From Bacteroidota bacterium (lineage in GTDB: Bacteria; Bacteroidota; Bacteroidia; Chitinophagales; LD1), in contig CANJLD010000004.1 of the NCBI GenBank assembly GCA_947475165.1, forward strand, positions 73,791 through 137,790: a stretch of DNA of 64,000 nucleotides, given 5' to 3'. The notes beneath the pieces were generated by a model that saw only the letters and a program-made list of their open reading frames with translations, searched no databases and was not told the origin of the DNA. This document shows, in pieces, positions 27,819-59,315 of this stretch. The first letter of the stretch is position 1. Every line of letters starts with the position of its first letter. A program made the position numbers and the translations under genes.

Positions 27819-29084
<1,266 letters not shown>

Positions 29085-29183
29085 TGAAGCATGTTTAAGT
29101 TTTGCAATAAGTTGCAAGATAAAATTCAGGAACAATATCTGTTGCAACAGACGAAGAAATGTTTTGTAGAAACAGGCTTAATT

Positions 29184-33161: not shown

Positions 33162-33200
33162 AGAGAAGCTGGCGATAACAACAACTTCTGTAAATGCAGT

Positions 33201-33800
33201 ATGGTAAACATCTTTAACATACTCGAAGAAATCAGGCAATTAAAACAAACATTTTACTTAATGTTTGAAAAACCAGTTTTTCTGAAAGAAGCAGAAATTG
33301 GAGTACCTCTTGAACCGGTAAATTACGAACACTTTAAAAGCGACCTTGACGAAAATCTGAGCAGGTTCGGTTTCAAAAGCCAGCCAAACGATTTTTTCAA
33401 TCCACAAATCAGCAAAGCTGAATTTTGGAAATTGCGAAACGCAAACATTAACCGTTCGGTAGTGTTGCTTCAAATCAACCAAGCCATAACGTTGAATGAA
33501 CTGGTTGCGTTGGTGCAGGGGGTAAAATATACGTTAGGTAAAGTAACGGGGTATGTTCCGTTTATTAATGAAGTAGGTATGCAGATTATTGTGCTATGCA
33601 ATAAAATTACAAACGCTGAAAACACCGTAAATTCTGTTGATACGTATAGCAATCAAAGAGCGATTATTCAAAGTATGTTTGTGGTTGATAATACCAACAG
33701 AAAATATTACAGTTCCATAACTGTATTGCAAACAGTAACCAGCCAAATACAAGCGGCAATTGAGAAGCAAATTTTGGTACAGTTAATTCCGGTGGATTAG
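33201..33800 (+). CDS. Hypothetical protein
   Basis: 199 residues, no family recognised. The N-terminus is charged and helical (MVNIFNILEEIRQLKQTF). The middle has a hydrophobic stretch (TGYVPFINEVGMQIIVLCNK) that is short for a membrane segment. The C-terminus is helical and Gln-rich. There is no signal peptide. It starts 39 bases after nuoF on the same strand and could share its transcript, but its Asn/Thr-rich composition and lack of relatives look accessory. A helix-turn-helix gene follows 129 bases later. Confidence 0.7.
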   Translation: MVNIFNILEEIRQLKQTFYLMFEKPVFLKEAEIGVPLEPVNYEHFKSDLDENLSRFGFKSQPNDFFNPQISKAEFWKLRNANINRSVVLLQINQAITLNELVALVQGVKYTLGKVTGYVPFINEVGMQIIVLCNKITNAENTVNSVDTYSNQRAIIQSMFVVDNTNRKYYSSITVLQTVTSQIQAAIEKQILVQLIPVD

Positions 33801-33929
33801 ATTTTACATTTTGTTTATACAGTTCTTGGTCGCTTGACCAACAACTATAATTCCTAACACTCTTTCACTTTCCCGCACACAATAATCTCCCACAAATTCA
33901 GTTTTCAAATTATACCAAACGTACAATTT

Positions 33930-34307
33930 ATGGCTATCCATGTATTAGAAAACTATGTATCGGTAGAGGAGTATGCCAAGCTGTGCGGCAAAACAAGGCG
34001 CGCTATTATGGACCGCATAAAAGCCAACGGTGTTTCGGCAATTAAAGTAGATGGCTACTACGCTATAAATGTAATTGCCAGCCCACCGGTTAAACATAAC
34101 CACCCCTCTGCCCGAGAAACCAAAAGCAGTGTGCATGTAGCGCACCACGAGTTGCGCTGTGTAATTACCTGGTGTTGGGGCAAACGGTATCGCTGCTATC
34201 CGTTCCTTCGCGCCATTATCAACGGCAAAATAGAAGGCTGGCTGATTGGCGATGAGGTCTTCGCCAAGGCAGAAGACTTAGAAGCCTTCCGCAAAAAGCG
34301 CGATTAA
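33930..34307 (+). CDS. Small DNA-binding protein with two excisionase/MerR-like winged helices
   Basis: 125 residues. Residues about 8-48 (YVSVEEYAKLCGKTRRAIM, followed by a wing around AIKVDGYYAI) look like a helix-turn-helix of the excisionase type. The C-terminal part (about 90-125: FLRAIINGKIEGWLIGDEVF then AEDLEAFRKKR) repeats the same wing pattern. The middle (about 50-80) is Pro/His-rich. The gene stops 70 bases before a 5-copy, 41-bp palindromic tandem array, which makes that array a natural candidate for its binding sites. No integrase or phage gene is nearby. The function is inferred. Confidence 0.75.
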   Translation: MAIHVLENYVSVEEYAKLCGKTRRAIMDRIKANGVSAIKVDGYYAINVIASPPVKHNHPSARETKSSVHVAHHELRCVITWCWGKRYRCYPFLRAIINGKIEGWLIGDEVFAKAEDLEAFRKKRD

Positions 34308-34377
34308 CTCCGTTTTCTTTTCTCCTATTGTCTCCGTAAATTCCACGGCAATACTATCCGCTCAGCAATCGTTTCTT

Positions 34378-34582
34378 TTTGTCACCCGCTAACGCTTGCC
34401 AATTGGTAAGCGTTATTATTTGTCAAACGCTAACGTTTCCTATACTCCGAACGTTGCCGGTTGTCAAAAGTTAACGCTTGGAGATCAGCAAGCGTTAGCG
34501 TTTGACAAATGCTGACGATTGTAGAATTAGCTACGTTATCATTTGTCATCAGTTGACGTTTGCTAACCGGGAAGCATCGTTA
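34378..34582. repeat. Five tandem 41-bp units, each with an internal inverted repeat
   Basis: Units begin at 34378, 34419, 34460, 34501 and 34542, with no insertions or deletions. Each starts with a form of TTTGTCA, continues with G(C/T)T(A/G)ACGnTTGC and, in four of five, ends with (A)CGTTA as the inverted partner. Unit 1 alone holds a 26-bp near-perfect palindrome (34390-34415). The arms 34418-34435 and 34493-34510 are perfect 18-bp inverted copies. The period of 41 bp is close to four helical turns, so sites would face the same side of the DNA. The flanking bases 34308-34377 show no feature. Confidence 0.9.
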
Positions 34583-34761
34583 AATTGGTTTAAATGCCAT
34601 CTGCTAATTGCCGGAAGCCATAAATGCTTCTGTGCCGGCTCTTACCGAGCGGCAGTTTGTCATATTTTTTCCGCTGCAATACAAATTGCTTTCATTACGG
34701 ATGTGGTATTTTGCATTTCAGTCAAGCAATATATATTGCATACTAATCATTAACCCAAACT
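34583..34761 (+). promoter_or_regulatory. Upstream region of the DUF4476 gene
   Basis: A/T-rich stretch between the 41-bp array and the ATG at 34762. TATTTTGC at 34707-34714 resembles a -7 box, with a TTGC about 19 bases upstream (34687-34690). No other element or gene was seen. Confidence 0.35.
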
Positions 34762-35655
34762 ATGGCTAAGAAATTATATCTGCTGGCGGTATTATTTATT
34801 GGTGCAATAACAGCACAAGCCGGCTTCTACTCGCACGTAACCATTTACAGCGAAGACCACTTAAAGTTTACGGTTTACCTGAATGGCGAAAAGAAAAATG
34901 ATGAACCGCAGGAGCGGGTGCGCATTATCAACCTTACCCAATCGTATTATAAACTGAAGATTGAGTTTGAAGATGTTTCTATACCACCAATTGAGAGAAA
35001 AATATTTCAGCTAACCGATGCGCACGGAAGCCCGGTGGATGCTACGCACATGATTAAGAAAACCAACAAGGGCGAATACGTTCTCCGTTGGCAATCGCAA
35101 ACCACTTACCCCGGTTATATTGAAGACCGCCCTACGGTTGTAGTTGTAAATGGCGGAGGAAATACGGTAGTGCGCGAAACCACCACTACCGAAACACAGG
35201 GCATTGCACCTCCGGTTCCCGGTGGAGTTAATATGAGTTTTGGTGTACCGGGTGGCAGCATCAGCATTAACAATGGTGCACCGGTAGTGCCTGCGCAAAC
35301 TACTACCACTACTACCACCTATTCTTCTTCTACAGCAGCACCGGTTGCCGCTTCAACCGATTGCAAAGGAACTATTTTAAGCACCAGCGATTTTTCTTCG
35401 GCATTAAGCAGTATAAAAGCACGCAGCAGCGAAGAAGGAAAGTTGAGTTCTGCCAAGCAAATTTTATCGTCTAACTGCTTTGCAGTAGAGCAGGTAAAGC
35501 AAGTAATTAGGTTGTTTACCACCGAAAGCGTAAAACTCGACTTAGCCAAGTTTGCGTTTGACCACACGCTTGATAAAGGCAATTACTTTAAACTCAACAG
35601 CGAATTTAAAGAGGAGAGTAGTATTGATGAATTGAGCAAGGCAACTACTAAATAG
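34762..35655 (+). CDS. DUF4476 secreted protein
   Basis: 297 residues. A signal peptide (MAKKLYLLAVLFIGAITAQA) is followed by a beta-rich N-terminal part (about 21-115; HVTIYSEDHLKFTVYLNGEK), a Gly/Thr/Val-rich linker containing a long Thr run (about 180-205), and a C-terminal DUF4476 helical domain (about 207-295; FSSALSSIKARSSEEGKLSS). DUF4476 proteins are common Bacteroidota envelope proteins of unknown role. The gene is followed 51 bases later by an M48 protease gene. Its upstream region contains the 41-bp palindromic array, so control by the neighbouring helix-turn-helix protein is possible. Confidence 0.88.
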   Translation: MAKKLYLLAVLFIGAITAQAGFYSHVTIYSEDHLKFTVYLNGEKKNDEPQERVRIINLTQSYYKLKIEFEDVSIPPIERKIFQLTDAHGSPVDATHMIKKTNKGEYVLRWQSQTTYPGYIEDRPTVVVVNGGGNTVVRETTTTETQGIAPPVPGGVNMSFGVPGGSISINNGAPVVPAQTTTTTTTYSSSTAAPVAASTDCKGTILSTSDFSSALSSIKARSSEEGKLSSAKQILSSNCFAVEQVKQVIRLFTTESVKLDLAKFAFDHTLDKGNYFKLNSEFKEESSIDELSKATTK

Positions 35656-35706
35656 TAGTTGCCGAATATTTGTATTTCTTTTCTTTGTTGAACACAAACA
35701 CTCGCC

Positions 35707-58899: not shown

Positions 58900-59001
58900 T
58901 TCTAATAATACACCCAAATGCCAGGAGAATGAAGCAAAGTCTTAGCAAACTTCTTTTGTCAGGTAGAAAGGTGTCGCTATTTTACACCATAAATGCTCTC
59001 C

Positions 59002-59232
59002 GTAGCTTCCTTATTGGATCCCAAAGCTTTCTTTTTCGATTGGGAAGCTTTCTTATTGAATTCTAAAGCTTCCTTTTCGGATTCCAAAGCTTTCGTATTG
59101 AATTCTAAAGCTTCCTTTTCGGATTCTAAAGCTTTCGTATTGAATTCTAAAGCTTTCGTATTGAATTCTAAAGCTTCCTTTTCGATTTCCAAAGCTTTCT
59201 TATTGAATTCTAAAACTTCCTTTTCGATTTAG
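59002..59232. repeat. 11 tandem 21-bp units encoding heptads
   Basis: Eleven units of exactly 21 bases with a common AAGCTT core, mostly alternating AAAGCTTTCGTATTGAATTC and AAAGCTTCCTTTTCGGATTC types. A twelfth, degenerate unit starts at 59233. No indels, so all frames stay open. The minus strand would read KALEFNT / KALESEK heptads, a coiled coil, but has no ATG start; the plus strand has an ATG at 58993. Neither is a convincing gene. The rest of the gap (58900-59001 and 59254-59315) has no feature. Confidence 0.9.
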
Positions 59233-59315
59233 CAAGCTTCCTTCTATTAACTAGGAGTTTGGATTTTTAATCCATTAATAAACCCAACAATGAGTTTTGC
59301 CGAAAAGGAAGGGGT

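Follow-up and report, generated by a model that had tools for sequence, protein, structure and literature searches.

The BldC-type MerR-like regulators of Streptomyces are small winged-helix proteins that lack an effector domain and bind cooperatively to repeats whose number varies; BldC itself is a one-domain protein, with short head-to-tail direct repeats as its sites (PMC5859096). TraN of pIP501, a DNA-binding protein of 14.4 kDa, carries two winged helices in one chain as an internal dimer and has a single 34-bp site without repeats in a conjugation operon (PMC4981023). StbA of R388 has its own phased repeat array, the stbDRs, which are 9-bp direct repeats with a two-nucleotide spacing at the operon promoter, on plasmids (PMC3098194). 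Pneumococcal BOX elements are intergenic modular arrays with conserved ends and, between these, tandem units that vary in number; their module sequences are common to all copies, their copy number is high and they have no obligate linkage to a gene family (PMC3049150). The minisatellite MITE BrickBuilt of Porphyromonas gingivalis, a member of the Bacteroidota, is an intergenic tandem array with a pitch of about two helical turns (23 bp), a leader and a tail, built from one unit sequence with small inverted-repeat ends and again without gene-family linkage (PMC4596501). In type III toxin-antitoxin systems such as ToxIN a tandem array lies directly upstream of a gene (PMC8860590), and REP/BIME elements (20-40 bp REP with a GTAG or CGTC tag) occur in high copy with a RAYT transposase gene (PMC3733652).

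In this study, we analysed a stretch of 64,000 nucleotides from a Bacteroidota genome of ~3.88 Mb, one of a group of uncultured freshwater bacteria (the window, to which positions refer), that contains an array of palindromes beside a gene for a small helix-turn-helix (HTH) protein. The locus shares with BldC a small winged-helix protein without effector domain, with TraN the two winged helices in one chain, and with StbA/stbDRs the pairing of a protein, here predicted to bind DNA, with its own phased array. However, its protein has two domains and its sites are palindromes 41 bp apart instead of head-to-tail direct repeats, a single site or the closely spaced promoter repeats of stbDRs. By analogy, this array and its relatives described below would work like the cooperative operator arrays of BldC and StbA-stbDR and look like BOX or BrickBuilt, yet none of these shares all its defining features with them, the chief difference being that those systems have a constant unit sequence. 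Module sequences common to all copies, as in BOX, were not found: units differ between loci and just an end motif recurs in one subclade. No RAYT gene was recognised among the array neighbours listed. We found no description of this array system in the open literature searched.

A 32-nt repeat family in the window has five copies, at 34370, 34411, 34452, 34493 and 34534, each 41 bp from the next. This recomputation confirms the five tandem palindromic units of exact 41-bp spacing described in an earlier note on this DNA, and the 18-bp inverted copies reported there, 34418-34435 (ATTTGTCAAACGCTAACG) and 34493-34510 (CGTTAGCGTTTGACAAAT), are indeed exact reverse complements. The five clear units (34362-34566) are odd palindromes with centres G(A/T)C at 34382, 34423, 34464, 34505 and 34546, and combine CGTTA at -12 to -8, TGWCA (TG(A/T)CA) at the centre and TAACG at +8 to +12. 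Half-sites alternate in orientation every ~20.5 bp, near two helical turns. Five was nevertheless too low a count, as at least seven units stand in register over ~34321-34607, with degenerate units at both ends. The gene-proximal end unit (34321-34361) is of the CCGTR..YACGG (B) type, which also occurs in those arrays of this genome that have no HTH gene beside them (orphan arrays), and the far end unit (34567-34607) contains GCATCGTTAAATTGG, comparable to the GTTAAAA end of those arrays. Self-identity of the array peaks at shifts of 82, 41 and 123 (0.59), the next best being 0.45. The single-site motif, at up to one mismatch, is confined in the genome to this array and its second copy, while a search of 30 family genomes for five TGWCA at 41-bp pitch, with up to three mismatches allowed, hit just the G000 and G016 arrays. 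Neither the Rfam nor the tRNA scan of the 64-kb window found anything.

The HTH gene (33930-34307, + strand) encodes 125 aa with two predicted excisionase-like winged HTH domains joined by a linker, and its product is the candidate array-binding protein. Excisionase, HTH_17 and Cox models matched weakly, below their cut-offs, and no curated family was reached. The AlphaFold model (mean pLDDT 60) has two helix-helix-hairpin winged domains and a disordered linker, with pLDDT 76-88 in domain 1 and low values in domain 2. The closest folds were BldC, the best match for domain 1 (Z 6.8), Pukovnik Xis, RdfS and RacA, and over both domains TraN of pIP501; Foldseek gave no match below E 0.001, and these fold matches are leads that leave room for unlisted families. 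A winged-helix DNA-binding fold of the MerR/excisionase-like kind is thereby predicted, and the two excisionase-like winged helices of the earlier note are borne out as a prediction, the second with low confidence. Comparison with relatives gave dN/dS of ~0.12-0.26, a rough value since dS is above 1 (saturated). Identity between species is 94-98% for NuoF and 51-77% for the HTH protein, which indicates that gene and array evolve fast.

The HTH protein was detected in four of the 30 family genomes, all of one genus, and in a 398-genome sample of the order it was again found in four species of one genus, with no convincing match outside it. Two further weak matches (E 2e-4 and 4e-4) had partial coverage, with stops or inside a much longer frame, and a pattern-limited scan of ~85,000 GTDB genomes returned just the same three relatives. 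In all four species a 41-bp array lies directly downstream of the gene, with identity peaks at 41, 82 and 123. BLAST was unable to align the arrays of different species, yet their 41-bp pitch is identical. Thus, the gene never occurs without an array and the spacing is kept exactly while the copies diverge, both as the earlier note had anticipated. A covariance model of two adjacent units gave significant matches (E below 0.005) solely in these four genomes, to which TGWCA-type arrays are confined. Outside matches of the first array model (G344, G244 and G192) were weak (E 0.009-0.05), and the period scan gave no support in the two checked, G344 and G244. Recognition helix 1 reads TRRxIMDRIKA in three of the proteins, whose arrays share CGTNA half-sites; in the fourth the helix reads SRRSVLNRIRS, and the half-site of the adjacent array differs as well. 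This is suggestive of a half-site that changes together with the recognition helix, as judged from four proteins.

The surroundings of the locus vary. In G000 and G015 it follows nuoF and one further unrelated ORF, in G016 it stands beside an HD-domain-like gene and in G012 it follows tRNA-Pro. In the window, the next gene is indeed a DUF4476 gene (34762-35655; Pfam 3e-13); elsewhere the position after the array is taken by phenylalanine hydroxylase-like, HD-domain-like or convergent DUF983-like genes (names read from the sequences). The proposal that the array controls DUF4476 is therefore not supported, and DUF4476 was rejected as its target. The stretch after nuoF (window 33162-35706) is a variable spot. 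In G012, nuoF lies directly before an M48 protease gene, with no orf199, HTH gene, array or DUF4476 between them; genus synteny is too loose for a comparison of insertion borders with empty sites, G012 alone showing this junction. A phage or plasmid excisionase locus is not supported, since no integrase or mobile element was recognised beside the HTH gene in the neighbourhoods examined and no relative of its protein was found in phages, plasmids or IMG/VR. Searches there with the HTH or the ~328-aa proteins introduced below gave one sub-threshold phage match (E 0.4). Where the record type of a relative is known, it is a metagenome assembly; several arrays are close to the end of a contig.

A second array is present in the same genome on contig C1 (124888-125115), beside an HTH gene that is truncated, its first ~80 residues being gone and about its last 44 codons intact. 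An ungapped alignment of the two arrays pairs their units one to one over 287 bp at 70% identity, which indicates that the units are old and not freshly duplicated. Half-sites and centre are identical at 66 of 75 positions (88%) as compared with 73 of 130 (56%) for the rest (Fisher p 1e-6), a pattern expected of conserved protein sites. GC skew of the two contigs was weak as a marker of origin or terminus.

Taken from these comparisons of sequence, the window array may consist of palindromic protein sites in double-stranded DNA, lined up on one face of the helix, with the adjacent two-winged-helix protein as its likeliest reader, assembling cooperatively and most likely controlling its own locus. 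We give this reading a probability of about 0.5. Symmetric sites, conserved half-sites, a fixed pitch and the lack of an RNA-type strand bias point to double-stranded DNA read by a protein along one face. G.T mismatches were not in excess over A.C, either in the palindromes (42 to 33, hand count) or in the arrays of the ~328-aa family (26 to 37 and 43 to 29), as expected of double-stranded sites. The adjacent HTH protein is the best candidate reader because TGWCA arrays and gene always occur together and because the half-site is altered in the species with the altered recognition helix. The protein would bind each palindrome and, by cooperative assembly on one helix face, cover the array with a regular nucleoprotein complex; this complex would most likely control its own locus and might in addition influence the other array of the chromosome. 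Against this assignment count the position of the array downstream of the gene and not at its promoter, the survival of the C1 array despite the truncated gene, the modest confidence of the AlphaFold model and the small number of proteins (four) behind the covariation of helix and half-site. A further point against it is that arrays of the same class exist without the HTH gene, and that G017 has a B-type array while no HTH gene was found there, so that the class does not need the gene.

Orphan arrays were exposed in the four HTH-gene genomes by the covariance model, and a second model that included CCGTA..TACGG units added several more in G000, G012, G015 and G016 and one in G017, where no HTH gene was found. 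They lie between genes in any orientation, comprise 5 to 13 units of exactly 41 bp, near-identical in some arrays, and have a common end motif like GGAGTACTCCGAATGTTAAAA. An array without the gene therefore does occur, even in the same genomes, and the exclusive pairing suggested earlier holds for the TGWCA type only. The link between gene and array was largely right but too narrow, as arrays of this class also stand upstream of an unrelated family of ~328-aa proteins, including in species without the HTH gene. Five orphan arrays lie just upstream of members of this unnamed family, for which a protein-only search gave 36 matches in 10 of 12 genus genomes, with up to nine per genome; in G000 they include C3:249828-250796 (L168), C40:12434-13405 (L178) and C11:56487-57323 (L190). 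All 31 copies with a usable ORF, five of them seeds found through their arrays and 26 found by protein search regardless of arrays, have an upstream array. The best period within 30-59 bp was 41 in 14 copies and 42 in 17, with no other value, as compared with a 41- or 42-bp array at the same upstream distance in 12 of 382 other genes (3%) on C1 and C4. The period tracks the protein subfamily: on the tree it has to change twice, as compared with 10.4 times in shuffles; the one exception is G016 C84, and G000 C11 forms a long branch. Units differ from locus to locus and are 57-100% identical within an array. Palindromes are jointly significant (Fisher 3e-12), but ~5 of 26 arrays have none, so that they are the rule here without being a constant feature. 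The family had no match in Pfam, NCBIfam, PHROG or PDB and only weak unrelated matches in PADLOC, no relatives were found in phages, plasmids or IMG/VR, and no DNA-binding domain was recognisable.

In 504 kb of this genome, all 14 intergenic arrays have a period of 21, 41 or 42 bp, in our own scan of periods from 15 to 100 bp with the intergenic label taken from ORF coverage; arrays of 18 and 54 bp in the same scan were coding. No 21-, 41- or 42-bp arrays were found in ~280 kb from other genera of the family. The window array belongs to a class of intergenic arrays that is specific to this lineage and has a pitch of 21, 41 or 42 bp; most of its members adjoin neighbours other than the HTH gene, above all the ~328-aa family. 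A second member in the window (58942-59243) has ~ten 21-bp units (AGCTTTCTTATTGAATTCTAA), for which periods of 42 and 63 bp were recorded too, and is intergenic, flanked by a 141-aa PIN-like ORF and a 526-aa gene. Because 21 and 42 are divisible by three, some 21/42-bp arrays that overlap short ORFs could be coding; for the 41-bp arrays, in-frame coding repeats are ruled out. The unit sequence is what normally defines a bacterial tandem array, whereas here the unit varies by locus and a spacing near whole helical turns follows the adjacent protein subfamily. The pairs of gene and array make it directly testable what reads spacing rather than sequence. A wider proposal, which we regard as possible but hold more loosely than the reading of the window array, is that the pitch of two or four turns, and not the sequence, is the property conserved genome-wide. 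In front of each of its genes the ~328-aa family would set or read a pitch of 41 or 42 bp, depending on subfamily, in an array with a unit sequence peculiar to that array; the two-winged-helix gene would be a second type of partner that has fixed one palindrome.

Other explanations must be weighed against this. The array could be bound by another, class-wide factor, either architectural or from the ~328-aa family, that reads or needs the pitch, the HTH gene being a passenger or a recent co-opter. Such a factor would fit the unbroken association of the ~328-aa copies with 41- or 42-bp arrays (26 of them found from the protein alone, against 3% expected from other genes), the tracking of period by subfamily, the uniform pitch of the 14 intergenic arrays and the B-type unit that flanks the HTH array. 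However, it explains neither why TGWCA arrays are confined to genomes with the HTH gene nor why that gene never lacks an array, and the ~328-aa family shows no recognisable DNA-binding domain; we consider it rather doubtful. It is unlikely, in turn, that the arrays are self-spreading, expanding interspersed repeats, BOX-like or a minisatellite in a MITE like BrickBuilt, that meet their neighbours by chance. Their intergenic location in several copies at unrelated places of a genome, the conserved end (...GGAGTACTCCGAATGTTAAAA), the near-identical units of some arrays and the second copy of gene plus array would all be expected of them. Units that vary by locus at constant pitch would not, as BOX and BrickBuilt have one unit sequence, and neither would the complete association with one gene family or the conserved half-sites; no transposase or target duplication was seen.

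Two further readings appear very improbable. If the arrays were transcribed and acted as RNA repeats, the ~40-bp tandem repeats directly upstream of the ~328-aa genes would resemble the toxI arrays of type III toxin-antitoxin systems (PMC8860590), and the units are able to fold. Yet the stems lack a strand bias of G.T over A.C, a terminator-like site lies between array and ~328-aa gene in just 1 of 24 cases, the family matches no toxin of the ToxN/AbiQ kind or other toxin family, there is no sign of RNA pairing as in ToxIN, and in the window the array is downstream of the gene. On strand bias and terminators, the reading as RNA hairpins was rejected. The earlier note had also considered a replication- or partition-like centromere site, here that of a former plasmid or element. 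A repeat array accompanied by one small DNA-binding protein and by no further gene recalls StbA with the stbDRs (PMC3098194), but every case lies on a chromosome-like contig that carries housekeeping genes, ParA, Rep and mobility genes are absent beside it and no plasmid or phage relative was found. Sites phased along one helix face and read by the neighbouring two-winged-helix protein thus remain our preferred reading of the window array.

Some minor features accompany these loci. Several arrays (L163, L154, L155 and L181) are bordered by recurrent terminator-like palindromes (CCCCGAAAGGGTTT..AAACCC.., CCTGACAGGTTTT..AAAACCTGTCAGG). Leucine-rich DUF7619-type proteins secreted by T9SS adjoin three arrays (L153, L155 and L162; the Pfam naming is that of the L153 member), and in two of these three loci their genes are divergent from the ~328-aa gene. 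Elsewhere in the window, at 28361-28620, a collagen-like Gly-X-Y coding repeat with periods of 9, 18 and 27 bp lies inside the ORF 27819-29147.
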